Positions 1-6,838 of a DNA stretch of 48,236 bases are shown here, piece after piece. Under the pieces are notes generated by a model. That model worked only from the letters and a program-made list of their open reading frames with translations. It made no database searches and was not told the origin of the DNA. Each line of letters opens with the position of its first letter. The stretch's first letter is position 1. The translations under genes were made by a program, and so were the position numbers. The stretch lies in assembly GCA_017858055.1 (NCBI GenBank), contig JAFMCA010000018.1, positions 1 to 48,236 on the forward strand, given 5' to 3'. This stretch comes from Flavobacteriaceae bacterium (GTDB lineage: Bacteria > Bacteroidota > Bacteroidia > Flavobacteriales > Flavobacteriaceae).

Positions 1-1568
1 TTCTACATGCTTGTGAAAAGGACAAGCTCCCTGATCCTCCTCCCCCAAATATCATATGGCTGGTAGCCGAGGACCAATCTCCTGAATTCTTTCCAATGTA
101 TGGAAACACTGTTGTTAAACTTCCCTACTTGAACGGTTTGGCTCAGGACGGCATGGTTTTTAATAACGCTTACAGCCCCGTCCCAGTATGCGCTCCGGCT
201 CGGTCTGCATTAATTACGGGGCTCTATCCCACTACTTTAGGAACCCATAACATGCGAACGTATAACGCTTACCAAGAAGAGAATCAACCCAGTATTGGGA
301 TTCCTAGCTATTCCCCACCAGCACCAGAGGGTGTAAAAATGTTTACTGAATACCTTCGTCAAGCAGGCTACTATACCACCAACAATGCAAAAGAGGATTA
401 TAATTTTAAAAAAAATTCAGCAGCATGGGATGAGAGTAGTCCCCAAGCCCATTGGAAGAATCGAAATCCAAACCAACCCTTTTTTGCAGTTTTTAATTTT
501 GGTATCAGCCATGAATCTCAAATATGGAATCAAGGGGAGAAGCCCCTTTTAGTAGATCCCCTCTTACTTACTGTGCCTCCCGTTTTTCCTGATACTCCAG
601 AAATCAGAAAGGACCTCGCGGTAAACTATAGTAATCTCATCCGTTTAGACCAACAAATTGGAAAAATCATTGAGCAACTCAAAGCAGAAGGGCTCTATAA
701 AAACAGTGTCCTCTTTTTCTATGGGGATCATGGAGGACCCTTCCCCCGGTATAAAAGGGCTTTGTATGAAACTGGGATTAAAGTTCCTTTAATCATAAAA
801 TTTCCCGATCAAAAAAATGCTAGTACTCGGAACGAAGATTTTATCAGCTTTATAGATTTTGCCCCAACAGTGTTATCGCTAGCAGGTATAAAACCTCCAA
901 CCGTTATGCAAGGAAAGGCACAATTTGGACCTTTTAAAAGCGGAAAAAAATCGGAATATATTTTCGCTTCTTCAGACCGATTCGATGAGCAGGTGGATCG
1001 AGTAAGAGCGGTGCGATACGGTAAATTTAAATACATTCGAAATTTCAACCCTGAAATTAGTAACGCCCTGCCTGTTTTATATCGAGAGCAAATGCCCATG
1101 ATGCAACAGCTCAATCGAATGTGGGAAGCAGGGGTATTGGAACCTGAAGTTTCGGCTTGGTTTGAAACCCCTAAACCAAGGGAAGAACTATACATTCTTG
1201 AAAATGACCCTTATGAGTTAAACAATCTAGCTGAAGAAATTTCACTTCAAGATACCTTAGAATTTCTGAGAAATCGATTGGAGCAATGGATTTTGGAGAC
1301 GAAGGATCTCGGTCAATTTCCAGAAAAGGAATTGCTGCTCCATTGGTTTCCAGACAAAAAACCAAAACAACTCACTCCAATTGAATATAAAATTGAAAAA
1401 GGGAAAATCTATTTGAGTCATTCTGACAGCAGTGCGAGTATAGTTTGGAAAACAACTCAAGATTCTGTTTGGTCTCTATATTCCAAACCGTTAGAGCGTT
1501 CAAATTCCTTACAAGCAAAAGCAGAACGGATTGGTTATACAGAGAGTGCAGTAATTAGCCTTCATTAA
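1..1568 (+). CDS. Cys-type sulfatase, heparan N-sulfatase-like (5' end outside window)
   Basis: Hydrolyses sulfate esters or sulfamates, probably on a polysaccharide. The frame is open from the first base, so the gene begins upstream; the first visible codons read LHAC-EKDK, which looks like a lipobox with the modified Cys at 12-14, so the mature enzyme is probably a lipoprotein. The core motif NIIWLVAEDQSP follows (metal-binding acidic pair). The catalytic CAPAR motif (C-x-P/A-x-R) is at 189-203, where Cys is oxidised to formylglycine in this family. FYGDHGG (near 720) supplies further metal ligands and the C-terminal ENDPYELNNLAEE is typical. No sulfatase-maturating enzyme is in the window. 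Its tail overlaps pdxA by 4 bases, convergent. Substrate cannot be told from sequence. Confidence 0.92.
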   Translation, partial: LHACEKDKLPDPPPPNIIWLVAEDQSPEFFPMYGNTVVKLPYLNGLAQDGMVFNNAYSPVPVCAPARSALITGLYPTTLGTHNMRTYNAYQEENQPSIGIPSYSPPAPEGVKMFTEYLRQAGYYTTNNAKEDYNFKKNSAAWDESSPQAHWKNRNPNQPFFAVFNFGISHESQIWNQGEKPLLVDPLLLTVPPVFPDTPEIRKDLAVNYSNLIRLDQQIGKIIEQLKAEGLYKNSVLFFYGDHGGPFPRYKRALYETGIKVPLIIKFPDQKNASTRNEDFISFIDFAPTVLSLAGIKPPTVMQGKAQFGPFKSGKKSEYIFASSDRFDEQVDRVRAVRYGKFKYIRNFNPEISNALPVLYREQMPMMQQLNRMWEAGVLEPEVSAWFETPKPREELYILENDPYELNNLAEEISLQDTLEFLRNRLEQWILETKDLGQFPEKELLLHWFPDKKPKQLTPIEYKIEKGKIYLSHSDSSASIVWKTTQDSVWSLYSKPLERSNSLQAKAERIGYTESAVISLH

Positions 1569-2575
1569 TTCGAAAACGTGCTACTTCGTTTTTGGAAGAT
1601 CTCTCGTGCTGAAAACAAAGCCTCAATAAAAGAGCTGGGGTCGGCTACACCTTGACCTGCTATATCAAAAGCTGTCCCGTGATCTGGAGACGTTCGAACC
1701 CGATTTAAGCCAGCAGTAAAATTAACCCCTTTCCCGAAAGAAAGTGTTTTAAAAGGGATAAGCCCCTGATCGTGATACATTGCCAACACGGCATCGTATC
1801 GAGTGTAGGTTTGACTTCCAAAAAAACCATCAGCAGCATAGGGTCCGAAAACAAGCTGCCCTTGGTCAAATAATTCTTTAAGTAAAGGACGGAGCAATAG
1901 ATCGTCTTCATTACCGATAACTCCTTGATCGCCTGTATGTGGATTGATCCCCAAAACCGCAATTTTTGGTCGTTGAATTCCAAAATCCTGAATAAGACTT
2001 TGAGATAATCGCTTAATTTTATCGGTTATGATTTGTTTTGTCAAGACCTTAGTTACCTCTTTGAGGGGGATGTGATCCGTTACTAAGGCAACCCGAAGTC
2101 TCTCGGATATCATAAACATGAGACTTTCTCCTTCCAATTCTTTGTTCAGATAATCGGTGTGTCCTGGGAAGTGAAAACTGTCTGACTGTATGCTTTTCTT
2201 GTGAATGGGTGCGGTAACTAGTGCCTCTATTTGGCTGTTTTTTAGCGCCGTTGTAGCAGCCACTAATGAACTCAACGCTGCTGCTCCCGCGGCAACTTCT
2301 TCCTTACCAAAAGTAAATCGAAAGGGCTTTTGCCAGGTATTGATTACATTCAATTGTCCATTTTTGGGGGTCTCCAAATTCTTTAAGGCAAAAATTGAAG
2401 TGCTCAAATCCAAACGTTTCTTTTCATTAATTAAGTTTTCACTATTTGCAAAAACAATGGGAGTGAAAAAATCAAAAAGGCGTTTGTCATGAAAAGCTTT
2501 TAAAATAATTTCAATACCAATGCCATTGGGATCACCAGCAGAAATTCCAATCCTTATTTTAGGGAGTTCCGTCAC
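1565..2575 (-). CDS. pdxA: 4-hydroxythreonine-4-phosphate dehydrogenase PdxA
   Basis: Oxidises 4-phosphohydroxy-L-threonine in the DXP-dependent pyridoxal 5'-phosphate pathway; cytoplasmic. The 336-residue protein has the family's usual length and motifs: ISAGDPNGIGIEI at the N-terminus, the metal-binding histidine regions in FPGHTDYL and AMYHDQGLIPFK, and RTSPDHGTAFDIAGQG near the C-terminus. The start is GTG at 2575; no in-frame ATG fits the conserved N-terminus better. It is divergent from riboflavin synthase across 53 bases that hold a -7 box for each direction. This is a normal housekeeping gene. Confidence 0.95.
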   Translation of the reverse strand: MTELPKIRIGISAGDPNGIGIEIILKAFHDKRLFDFFTPIVFANSENLINEKKRLDLSTSIFALKNLETPKNGQLNVINTWQKPFRFTFGKEEVAAGAAALSSLVAATTALKNSQIEALVTAPIHKKSIQSDSFHFPGHTDYLNKELEGESLMFMISERLRVALVTDHIPLKEVTKVLTKQIITDKIKRLSQSLIQDFGIQRPKIAVLGINPHTGDQGVIGNEDDLLLRPLLKELFDQGQLVFGPYAADGFFGSQTYTRYDAVLAMYHDQGLIPFKTLSFGKGVNFTAGLNRVRTSPDHGTAFDIAGQGVADPSSFIEALFSAREIFQKRSSTFSN

Positions 2576-4402: not shown

Positions 4403-5671
4403 ATGAATTTACACGAATTATCTGCATTTTTGCTTATTCTCGCCTCCCTATTCTCAATTATTAATCTTCGTATTTTAAAACTCCCTCACACCATTGGATT
4501 AATGGTTTTAGCGATTGTTTTATCCCTAGTTGTCCTTCTTACGGGATTAATAATGCCAGATTTTCTCTCAATGGCTACCTCACTAACAGAACAATTTGAC
4601 TTTAGTGTTTTATTGATCGACGTGATGTTACCTTTCTTGTTGTTTGCGGGGGCAATAAGTGTGGATGTTCACGAGCTCCTGAAGGATAAAGTTACTATAC
4701 TTCTTCTGGCGAGTTTTGGTGTCATTTTCTCCACCTTTGCTGTTGGAACAGGATTATTTTGGATTGTAAGTCAGCCTTTTTTGGGATTGACGGGAGTCGG
4801 TTTAACTTATGTAGATTGTCTTTTGTTTGGTGCACTTATCGCTCCTACAGATCCCATAGCAGTACTAGCTATGGTAAAAAAAATGAACCTTTCTAAAATT
4901 ACGGAAACTCGAATTGCAGGGGAATCCCTTTTTAATGATGGGATCGGTGTAGTGGTTTTTCTGACTTTATTGACTATGAAGGTTGAGGGAGTTGAAAACA
5001 TAACCGCTGCAAGTGTAAGTATGCTTTTTGCTACGGAGGTAATTGGAGGTGTTTTACTTGGCGCAGGCTTAGGCTTTTTAGGATTAAAATTGGTGGAATA
5101 TATCGAAAATGAGCACGTAGAGTTAGAGGTTCTCATAACTTTATCCTTGGTACTCTTAGTTCCAGTAATCGCTCATGTATTTCATTTTTCAGCGGTCCTT
5201 GCTGTGGTTGTGATGGGTCTTTTTCTCAATCAAAATATCGATACCGATAAAAAAACCGATGGCGTACAAAAAGCGATGGGAGACTATGTCTATAAATTTT
5301 GGCATCTTGTTGACGAAACCCTAAATGCAATATTATTCATCTTGATTGGTTTAGAGATTATCCCAATTCTTCAAAACTTTGAGATGAGCTATATCGTATT
5401 AATTGTACTGGTAGTTATTCTGGTCGTCGTCTCTAGAGGGATTGGAGTCATACTTCCCATTCAATTGCTTTCTATAAAACAAGTTTTTGAAAAAAATACT
5501 GCTCTAATCATTACCTGGGGAGGACTTCGAGGTGGACTCAGTATTGCGCTTGCTTTAAACCTTCCCGATAGCATTGGTACAGGCAAAGATCTGATCTTAA
5601 TTCTAACCTATGGCGTGGTTTTATTTACCATTTTAGTTCAGGGCCTAACGTTGAAAAAAATTGTCAAATAA
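4403..5671 (+). CDS. Na+/H+ antiporter, CPA1 (NhaP-like) family
   Basis: Exchanges external protons for cytoplasmic Na+ (or K+) across the inner membrane. The 422-residue protein is almost entirely hydrophobic segments, about 12-13 helices. The key family residues are visible: T149-D150-P151 in the unwound helix region and N178-D179 in GESLFNDGIGVVVF. WGGLRGGLSIALAL near residue 375 is the conserved late-helix motif. It lacks the long C-terminal cytoplasmic tail of larger NhaP proteins and ends right after the last helix. It stands alone, with 123 bases before it. CPA1 membership is secure; the transported ion is inferred. Confidence 0.9.
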   Translation: MNLHELSAFLLILASLFSIINLRILKLPHTIGLMVLAIVLSLVVLLTGLIMPDFLSMATSLTEQFDFSVLLIDVMLPFLLFAGAISVDVHELLKDKVTILLLASFGVIFSTFAVGTGLFWIVSQPFLGLTGVGLTYVDCLLFGALIAPTDPIAVLAMVKKMNLSKITETRIAGESLFNDGIGVVVFLTLLTMKVEGVENITAASVSMLFATEVIGGVLLGAGLGFLGLKLVEYIENEHVELEVLITLSLVLLVPVIAHVFHFSAVLAVVVMGLFLNQNIDTDKKTDGVQKAMGDYVYKFWHLVDETLNAILFILIGLEIIPILQNFEMSYIVLIVLVVILVVVSRGIGVILPIQLLSIKQVFEKNTALIITWGGLRGGLSIALALNLPDSIGTGKDLILILTYGVVLFTILVQGLTLKKIVK

Positions 5672-5696: not shown

Positions 5697-5704
5697 TATA
5701 TTTG
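5697..5704 (+). promoter_or_regulatory. -7 box (TATATTTG) of a short transcription unit
   Basis: TATATTTG is a full match to TAnnTTTG. The position 19 bases upstream reads TTT (5675-5677) rather than TTG. Transcription would begin near 5708-5712 and run to the terminator at 5846-5874. Confidence 0.5.
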
Positions 5705-5706
5705 AG

Positions 5707-5742
5707 ATGAGAAGTTCGTGCTGTGACAACAGTAATGTCTAA
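5707..5742 (+). CDS. Possible 11-codon leader peptide containing Cys-Cys
   Basis: ATG 5707 opens MRSSCCDNSNV and stops at TAA 5740-5742. It starts 2 bases after the -7 box, so it could only be translated from a leaderless or near-leaderless message. Two adjacent Cys codons would suit a cysteine-sensing leader peptide, but nothing downstream proves this. At this length chance is a real possibility. Confidence 0.2.
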   Translation: MRSSCCDNSNV

Positions 5743-5766
5743 CTAAATTTAGAAAGGAGGTGTCTT

Positions 5767-5829
5767 ATGTCTTATGATAATCATTTGAGGAATACAAGAC
5801 AGCAAGTACCTACTCTAGGTCCGCTGTGA
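5767..5829 (+). CDS. Possible 20-residue peptide with an exceptional Shine-Dalgarno
   Basis: ATG 5767 begins MSYDNHLRNTRQQ and the ORF ends PTLGPL at TGA 5827-5829. GGAGG at 5756-5760 is 6 bases from the ATG, ideal spacing, within a much longer anti-SD match. Flavobacterial genes rarely use Shine-Dalgarno pairing, and other starts in this window lack one, so this site is unusual. The peptide is polar and has no signal or membrane segment. It may be a real small protein, or the ATG may only serve to load ribosomes on a regulatory RNA. I do not recognise it. Confidence 0.4.
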   Translation: MSYDNHLRNTRQQVPTLGPL

Positions 5830-5845
5830 TTTTCCTTATCTATCT

Positions 5846-5874
5846 AAAAAGCGAGTCGATGGGCTCGCTTTTTT
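5846..5874 (+). terminator. Strong intrinsic terminator
   Basis: AAAAAGCGAG (5846-5855) pairs perfectly with CTCGCTTTTT (5864-5873) around the loop TCGATGGG, and the stem ends in six T's. It closes the short transcript and lies 13 bases before the oxygenase ATG, so it could also act as an attenuator for that gene. Confidence 0.85.
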
Positions 5875-5887
5875 AAGCTTTAAATTC

Positions 5888-6838
5888 ATGCAAAAAATTC
5901 CCCAAGCAGATCTAGGTAATTTTCTTTCTAAAAATCCTAACGAGCAAAAGGCTTTTGTTGAAAACATCGGTAATGCCTTTCAAGAAATTGGATTTTTAGC
6001 CCTTAAAGGGCATTTTTTAGATGCCGAACTTCAAAAATCCCTTTACAAAGAAATCAAGGCCTTTTTTGCACTTCCAGATTCGGTAAAAAATCGTTATGAA
6101 ATTCAAGGGGGAGGGGGACAAAGAGGCTATACAAGTTTTGGTAAAGAACATGCAGCAGGTAGAAAAGTCGGTGATTTAAAAGAATTTTGGCATTTTGGAC
6201 AAGATTTAAGCTTGTATCCTGAACTTCATGGAGTGTATCCTGAAAATGTCCAAGTTGAAGAGCTCACTGCCTTTAACTCCATCGGAAATGCAGTTTTTAA
6301 GCGTTTGGAAAAAACCGCGCAGGTGCTGCTTCAAGCTATCGCTTTGTATTTAAATCTAGAACCTTCCTTTTTTGATCCCTATATCTTAGGAGGGAATTCC
6401 ATTTTAAGAGCGATTCATTACCCTCCAATTATTGAAGCTCCCAAAGATGCTGAGCGAGCAGCGGCTCATGGCGATATCAATTTGATTACTCTTTTAATGG
6501 GTGCCCAAGGTGGAGGATTGCAAGTCCTAAATAGACAAAATCAGTGGATCGAGGCTGTTGCTGAACCAGATGAGTTAATTGTAAATATTGGAGACATGCT
6601 TTCCCGATTGACAAATAACCGACTCCCCTCTACGGTTCACAGGGTTGTTAATCCTCCTAAAGAGGAATGGGGAAATCCGCGCTATTCACTGCCTTTTTTT
6701 ATGCACCCTATTCCACAAATGCCCTTAAATTGCCTGTCACAAACCATAGATAAGGAACATCCAAAAAAGTATGAGGACATTACCGCTGGTGAATTTCTCA
6801 ATCAACGCCTAATCGCCTTGGGGCTTTTAAAACACTAA
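5888..6838 (+). CDS. 2-oxoglutarate/Fe(II)-dependent oxygenase, isopenicillin N synthase family
   Basis: A cytoplasmic non-haem iron oxygenase of 316 residues. The N-terminal DIOX_N region covers roughly residues 5-120 and the jelly-roll 2OG-FeII domain 175-285. Ligands are visible: H194-x-D196 in AAHGDINLITLL, H251 in TVHRVVNP, and the 2-oxoglutarate-binding R265-x-S267 in RYSLPFF. The family includes isopenicillin N synthase, gibberellin and ethylene-forming enzymes; the bacterial branch is mostly of unknown substrate. Its ATG lies 13 bases after a terminator, so it has no promoter of its own unless one overlaps that hairpin, or it depends on read-through. Its 3' end overlaps the convergent hydrolase gene by 41 bases. 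Confidence 0.9.
   Translation: MQKIPQADLGNFLSKNPNEQKAFVENIGNAFQEIGFLALKGHFLDAELQKSLYKEIKAFFALPDSVKNRYEIQGGGGQRGYTSFGKEHAAGRKVGDLKEFWHFGQDLSLYPELHGVYPENVQVEELTAFNSIGNAVFKRLEKTAQVLLQAIALYLNLEPSFFDPYILGGNSILRAIHYPPIIEAPKDAERAAAHGDINLITLLMGAQGGGLQVLNRQNQWIEAVAEPDELIVNIGDMLSRLTNNRLPSTVHRVVNPPKEEWGNPRYSLPFFMHPIPQMPLNCLSQTIDKEHPKKYEDITAGEFLNQRLIALGLLKH

Follow-up and report, generated by a model that had tools for sequence, protein, structure and literature searches.

A conserved small RNA unit with an exceptionally strong Shine-Dalgarno sequence in Flavobacteriaceae and its possible link to bS21-lacking ribosomes

A compact unit between an antiporter and an oxygenase gene

The window analyzed here (the whole stretch of 48,236 nucleotides from a Flavobacteriaceae bacterium, contig JAFMCA010000018.1) carries on its forward strand a CPA1-type Na+/H+ antiporter gene (4403..5671; PF00999) and a 2OG-Fe(II) oxygenase-like gene (5888..6838; PF14226/PF03171), and between them, on the same strand, a set of short elements that spans positions 5697-5874. 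An earlier note made from the letters of this DNA had described these elements as a self-contained unit with a −7 box, a terminator and a mini-ORF, and each of them was found where that note had placed it. The unit opens with the promoter −7 box TATATTTG (5697..5704), which we identify on the assumption that TAnnTTTG is the Bacteroidota −7 consensus; this motif stands upstream in 43 of the 48 copies of the unit described below, and of the other five copies one is cut by a contig end (L026) and four differ in sequence (L233, L234, L237, and L238). Transcription from this predicted promoter would give an RNA of ~165 bases ending at the unit's own terminator. Within it follow a 5' hairpin, P1 (GCUGU-GACA-ACAGU with loop GACA; 5720..5733), an extended Shine-Dalgarno (SD) sequence TAGAAAGGAGGTGT (5750..5763) and, six bases after GGAGG as had been claimed, an ATG at 5767 that begins a mini-ORF of 20 codons plus a TGA stop (MSYDNHLRNTRQQVPTLGPL; 5767..5829). 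An interrupted hairpin, P2 (5786..5838), covers the second half of the mini-ORF and its stop codon through the helices UGAGGAA:UUCCUUA, ACAGC:GCUGU, and ACCUA:UAGGU, and the segment ACCTACT (5808-5814) lies inside the mini-ORF RNA. Behind the stop codon stands the near-invariant UCCUUAUCUA (5833..5842), composed of UCCUUA and then UCUA and resembling the 16S tail UCCUUUCUA; its UCCUUA is either the 3' arm of P2 or an alternative partner of the SD.

The unit is closed by an intrinsic terminator (5848..5874) with a covarying stem (5848-5871), a conserved GAUG loop and a T run to 5874. A simple promoter and terminator scan listed neither the promoter nor the terminator of the unit; the promoter consensus of that scan is of another type, and the terminator was probably missed since its A:U pairs consume the T run. 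With A and T runs on either side of its stem, the terminator could also serve the opposite strand, which carries the next long ORF in two copies (L230 and L238).

The SD sequence TAGAAAGGAGGTGT is the exact 14-base complement of ACACCTCCTTTCTA, found at the 3' ends of the 16S genes in G001, G004, and G029, three genus mates in which this gene terminates in GGAACACCTCCTTTCTAGAG; this genome's own assembly holds no 16S gene and the tail was taken from these relatives, and the final one or two bases of the match may fall past the mature 16S end. The claim that the match reaches beyond the common CCTCC core is thus borne out against the tail of the three genus mates. Set against the 9-13 bp of pairing and the energy below −13 kcal/mol that describe an rpsU-type site, the mini-ORF offers 14 bases and a duplex energy of −22.5 kcal/mol, compared with −19.9 kcal/mol for rpsU of the same genome (both with the 14-base tail), whose leader reads GAAAGGAGGTG-CCATTTT-ATG; across 19 representative copies of the unit the energy ranges from −14.0 (L238) to −22.7 kcal/mol. 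By number alone such sites are unremarkable: the 11-mer GAAAGGAGGTG occurs 3 times in the 2.0-Mb assembly and its reversed control pattern 2 times, and the 8-mer AAAGGAGG is not clearly enriched (176 occurrences against 160 for the reversed pattern). Two of the three 11-mer sites lie just before a start codon (those of the mini-ORF and rpsU), and the third falls within a gene of the opposite strand, where no ATG follows at SD distance. The match is notable for standing before a start codon, for extending to 14 bases and for being conserved, and not for its count. Copies within the genus that read U-GAAAGG (one base less than UAGAAAGG) are also one T shorter between GGAGG and ATG.

Distribution and genomic neighborhood

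A DNA search of 60 genomes found the unit in 33 of 37 genomes of its own genus (its own included) and in none of 23 genomes of other families; the four genus genomes without a match are 56-82% complete, and the oxygenase was not found in them either. In an alignment of 34 copies from the 33 genus genomes (two of them, L022 and L026, truncated at the 5' side), there is hardly any variation in the promoter box, the SD or UCCUUAUCUA, and the changes in P1 and the terminator come in pairs. Covariance models extended the distribution to the family: a first model (R1) gave 13 strong matches in 299 family genomes, of which 11 lie outside the genus, plus 9 weak matches, two of these lacking a locus, and a second (R2) gave 17 strong and 2 weak matches in 397 family genomes, a set that overlaps the first. 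Of the strong R2 matches, 3 belong to the genus and 14 are spread over eight further genera of Flavobacteriaceae, so that conservation beyond this strain, on which the earlier note had made its proposal depend, is found both throughout most of the genus and in those eight genera. A covariance search of 395 genomes of the order returned this genome as the only strong match, along with 3 weak ones. Weak covariance matches at 11 loci (L239-L245 and L283-L286; E 0.0038-0.099) have no antiporter within ~1.5 kb and were taken as chance. A third model that includes P2 (R3), run on 21 sources, recovered all 20 unit-bearing ones with E values of 1e-16 or better; nearly all of its weak matches (E 0.0002-0.54) lie beside or opposite the unit, and it did not match the rpsU locus (L154). 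Copies were found with models of this very family, and the presence of the SD and the hairpins among them is therefore partly ascertained; the stop codon lies outside the model. Carrier assemblies measure 1.3-2.2 Mb outside the genus (n = 14) and 1.0-2.2 Mb within it, where several are incomplete.

One copy (L238 in G491; element at 1501-1650, minus strand) has its SD core changed to GGAAG and has lost P2 and UCCUU beside an intact antiporter; it looks like a copy in decay, and it is included in all counts.

The upstream neighbor is constant: in each of the 14 copies from other genera, a CPA1 antiporter homologue of 69-78% identity directly precedes the unit, and no separate terminator is visible by eye between the antiporter and the unit in the window. 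Both observations would suit an antiporter 3' untranslated region with its terminator, from which an internal promoter releases a small RNA that acts on the antiporter, a reading that we regard as very unlikely. Such shared synteny may reflect simple descent, and among 10 close antiporter homologues (this one included; 149-genome set) three have no unit in the ~330 nt behind them, namely those of G234 (L249), G324 (L254), and G328 (L253). G328 belongs to g170, the genus of the carrier G519, which points to a lineage-specific loss or gain.

Downstream the neighborhood varies. The oxygenase gene comes next in 6 of the 14 copies outside the genus and is absent within ~1.5 kb downstream in the other 8; in seven of these eight, for which the following ORFs were listed, they are not the same, and some lie on the opposite strand. 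These copies bear on a reading of the unit as a leader peptide and attenuator of the oxygenase gene, which was favored at first from the genus alignment and dropped once the copies without an oxygenase appeared, and to which we now accord hardly any probability. Most genus copies do place the oxygenase ATG ~5-25 nt past the T run, with no promoter visible by eye between the two. Within the genus, the ~290 nt that were read past the unit of G025 hold no oxygenase, and none was found elsewhere in that 58%-complete genome. Oxygenase homologues outside the genus matched in 96 other genomes; upstream DNA was read for 29 of them and by eye shows no such unit. The leader-peptide attenuator tnaC likewise consists of a short ORF followed by an intrinsic terminator; unlike tnaC, the unit lacks a constant downstream gene, and no conserved antiterminator alternative was seen in the consensus folds or by eye. 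Since its downstream neighbors vary and some antiporters stand without it, we consider the unit an independent gene beside the antiporter.

Covarying hairpins and a kept reading frame

The RNA of the window copy folds better than 199 of 200 shuffled sequences (z −3.3). We assessed its helices on an alignment (A3) of 41 rows, comprising 31 genus and 10 other-genus copies, that was fitted to P1 and the terminator and not to P2, the P2 pairs having been chosen from these same sequences. With P1, P2, and the terminator taken together, 95.0% of cells are paired, and two-sided changes occur at 14 pairs (6.2 in shuffles) and fill 81 cells (20.0 in shuffles); the covariation score is 0.267 against 0.161, and none of 500 shuffles reaches the two-sided counts or the score. 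Further pair types number 31 against 26.6, a value reached by 2 of 500 shuffles, and sliding the partners lowers pairing to 37-53%. P1 (3 of 5 pairs changed on both sides) and the terminator (6 of 10) clearly covary by this comparison of sequences. P2 on its own gives two-sided changes at 2 of 7 and 3 of 5 pairs, and its paired cells amount to 93.4% and 85.1%, respectively. Among 33 genus copies aligned with MAFFT, 9 pairs changed on both sides against 3.7 in shuffles; P1 and the terminator account for 7 of them and P2 for just 2, out of its 15 pairs, and the innermost helix of P2 is paired in 77.8% of cells. Support for P2 hence comes mainly from comparison between genera. The covariation among relatives that the earlier note proposed to look for is thus present in P1 and the terminator, and across genera in P2.

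When the P2 segment is folded alone, 18 of 19 representatives close the basal arm or an equivalent, with arms that differ in sequence (ACAGCGGA:UCCGCUGU in L230 and ACAACAGAU:AUCUGUUGU in L235), and the segment at the end of the ORF reaches z −1.5 or lower against dinucleotide shuffles in 16 of 19 (the exceptions being L014, L028, and L238).

The genus consensus from RNAalifold is a different fold, one that hides the SD: GAAAGGAGGUGUC pairs with GGUACC of the ORF and with UCCUU-A-UC. Together with P1 and the terminator this fold pairs 99.4% of cells in the genus, and its two SD helices pair 95.3% across genera. Most of its positions scarcely vary, and its two-sided changes across genera are at shuffle level (1 pair against 0.8 and 2 cells against 0.9), although its paired cells and covariation score are beaten by only 2 and 3 of 500 shuffles, respectively. 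In single-sequence folds of the 41 copies, the partner of UCCUU is the ORF in 24 and the SD in 16 (those in which the SD-hiding fold is the lowest-energy choice), and in one (L238) it is neither; in the window copy the pairing probability is 0.78 with the ORF and 0.20 with the SD. Dual pairing of ACCTACT had been proposed from the sequence, and both halves are genuine possibilities: pairing with TAGGT forms part of P2, with compensatory changes across genera and few within the genus, and pairing with the SD belongs to the SD-hiding fold, which is favored by paired cells and score but not by two-sided changes. As judged from these folds, the SD-hiding structure may be an alternative state and the RNA bistable, and the near-equal energies of the two folds make a switch possible. 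UCCUU behind the stop codon would then pair either with the ORF, forming P2 and leaving the SD free, or with the SD, hiding it. The message may in any case be poorly accessible at the SD, where the mean unpaired probability is 0.12-0.51 in the 19 representatives.

The hairpin loops are kept more strictly than the stems. The P1 loop is GACA and the terminator loop GAUG in 40 of 41 rows of A3 each, L238 departing in both, and GAUG was found in none of 18 other terminator-like hairpins scanned in the loci studied (of 34 such hairpins in all, the 16 GAUG entries are all the unit's terminator, two of them being the same terminator of the window). That the GAUG loop (5858-5861) is kept while its stem varies freely suggests a contact or binding role. 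A dual-function small RNA, both base-pairing regulator and source of a peptide, could account for this loop and for the near-invariance of UCCUUAUCUA before the terminator, with UCCUUAUCUA and its UCUA as the candidate target-binding site; we consider it improbable, as pairing in P2 or with the SD at least partly accounts for UCCUUA. SgrS/SgrT, a dual-function small RNA, similarly combines its own promoter and terminator with a short ORF, but in the present unit the ORF takes up a large share of the stretch from hairpin to hairpin, the SD is exceptional and target pairing is only hypothetical.

The mini-ORF measures 19-21 codons in all 48 copies, with TGA, TAA, or TAG as stop, and in 47 of them the stop lies no more than 8 nt ahead of the UCCUU element; when 12 representatives were each subjected to dinucleotide shuffling, the first stop came within 12 nt of UCCUU in 5-10% of the shuffles of each. 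For 28 distinct 20-codon sequences (a set that leaves out four 21-codon copies), pN/pS is 0.52 in the reading frame, compared with 0.79 and 1.58 when the frame is shifted; this is the kind of codon-like substitution by which the earlier note had proposed to judge its ORF. These values suggest moderate constraint on the peptide, part of which may come from RNA structure, and the kept frame and stop position favor translation over a purely untranslated decoy. Most genera have in common the N-terminal pattern M-[SF]-Y-x-x-[HYN]-L-[RG], the exceptions being the copies of g136, which start MSNTKY and encode a peptide that is for the most part different, and g247, which has I for Y; the C-terminal half is not conserved between genera. 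None of the 48 peptides inspected has the hydrophobic membrane character of type I toxins. Some resemble the C-terminal tail of bS21 (YxxHLRN in the peptides, Y54-IQHLRD in bS21), but the resemblance is not significant here: for the peptide of the window p is 0.049 against windows of real proteins and 0.076 against shuffles, and among 19 peptides some reach 0.0015-0.014 on real windows and eleven exceed 0.08. The idea of such mimicry was conceived after the sequences had been seen and is not counted as evidence.

In the window, an Rfam search, which the earlier note had suggested, found no family above the gathering threshold (the best match below it scored 16.2 bits, the cut-off being 75), and among the matches to AAAGGAGGTGTNNNNATG listed, 119 contig stretches, a motif check flagged none with this peptide. 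Within the open-licence literature searched there is no report of this RNA, nor of a second gene with a strong SD in Flavobacteriales. The unit is real and conserved and, as far as these searches reach, undescribed.

A candidate message for bS21-lacking ribosomes

The bS21 protein of this genome has Y at position 54 and matches chain z of 7jil (7jil_z, E 5e-27), which we take to be the F. johnsoniae ribosome; tblastn of bS21 against plasmids and phages returned 4 and 6 records. Several points on bS21 come from one study (McNutt et al. 2023, PMC9976891). There, the 16S tail of F. johnsoniae is held by bS21, bS18, and bS6, and ribosomes without bS21 translate messages with a strong SD better (PMC9976891). 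Truncation of bS21, the Y54A change or depletion raised strong-SD reporters ~1.4- to >4-fold and left SD-less reporters almost unaffected, rpsU'-gfp increasing 3- to 4-fold upon loss of bS21, and rpsU mRNA with its extended SD formed unusually stable 70S complexes, with toeprints even without fMet-tRNA (PMC9976891). In the same study, a survey of 200 Flavobacteriales, in which regions before gene start codons were scored, describes extended SDs as typical of rpsU and an exceptionally strong SD as typically confined to that gene; SD control in this order is, in the authors' conclusion, limited to rpsU autoregulation (PMC9976891). That description agrees with the earlier note on the rarity of such sites in the lineage. 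Judged by its sequence, the mini-ORF looks like a second, unannotated case of an exceptionally strong SD in Flavobacteriales beside rpsU, and an unannotated ORF of 20 codons could escape a survey of annotated starts.

We hypothesize that positions 5697-5874 form a stand-alone micro-gene whose RNA, with its own predicted promoter and terminator, would be the message of a micropeptide translated preferentially by ribosomes lacking bS21; for this reading as a whole we put the chances at about even. A preference of bS21-free ribosomes for the mini-ORF is expected because the logic established for bS21 in F. johnsoniae (PMC9976891) would apply to so strong an SD: in Flavobacteriales the bS21-bS18-bS6 pocket holds the 16S tail, and the mini-ORF should be read preferentially by ribosomes without bS21. 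The same bS21-lacking subpopulation would then drive both rpsU and the mini-ORF, the latter being a second output of such ribosomes when bS21 is short or 30S assembly incomplete, and the near-balanced choice of UCCUU between ORF and SD may set how hard a ribosome must compete for the SD. The unit resembles rpsU and its extended-SD autoregulation in SD strength (similar or greater here), in having its own short transcription unit and in lineage (PMC9976891); it differs in encoding a 20-aa peptide and not a ribosomal protein, in having P1, P2, and its own terminator, in occurring in 9 genera only, and in being known here from sequence where rpsU has been studied experimentally.

The same elements can be read with less weight on the peptide. 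The start of P2 lies 20 bases past the A of the AUG, and the leading edge of an initiating ribosome is expected near +20. An RNA that traps or senses ribosomes would mainly capture 30S subunits whose anti-SD is free and keep them between P1 and P2, with the peptide incidental, and would be consistent with this position of P2, with two nearly invariant hairpin loops and with an SD that stays nearly invariant while the C-terminal half of the peptide diverges; the stable 70S complexes on rpsU mRNA also fit. A pure trap has no need of an open frame of 19-21 codons with a kept stop position, and titration would require high abundance of the RNA, and we think this rather unlikely. More broadly, and tentatively, the RNA could be a device that detects bS21-lacking ribosomes with an exposed anti-SD, in which translation or the holding of ribosomes signals or buffers defective 30S subunits; its parts would be the very strong SD as a landing pad, the hairpin downstream and the imitation of the 16S tail that swaps between SD and ORF.

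Returning to the micropeptide message, the unit would offer a compact substrate for the ribosomes purified in the F. johnsoniae work (PMC9976891). If it is truly a second conserved case beside rpsU, the bS21-free ribosomes of these bacteria would gain a possible output beyond bS21 itself.
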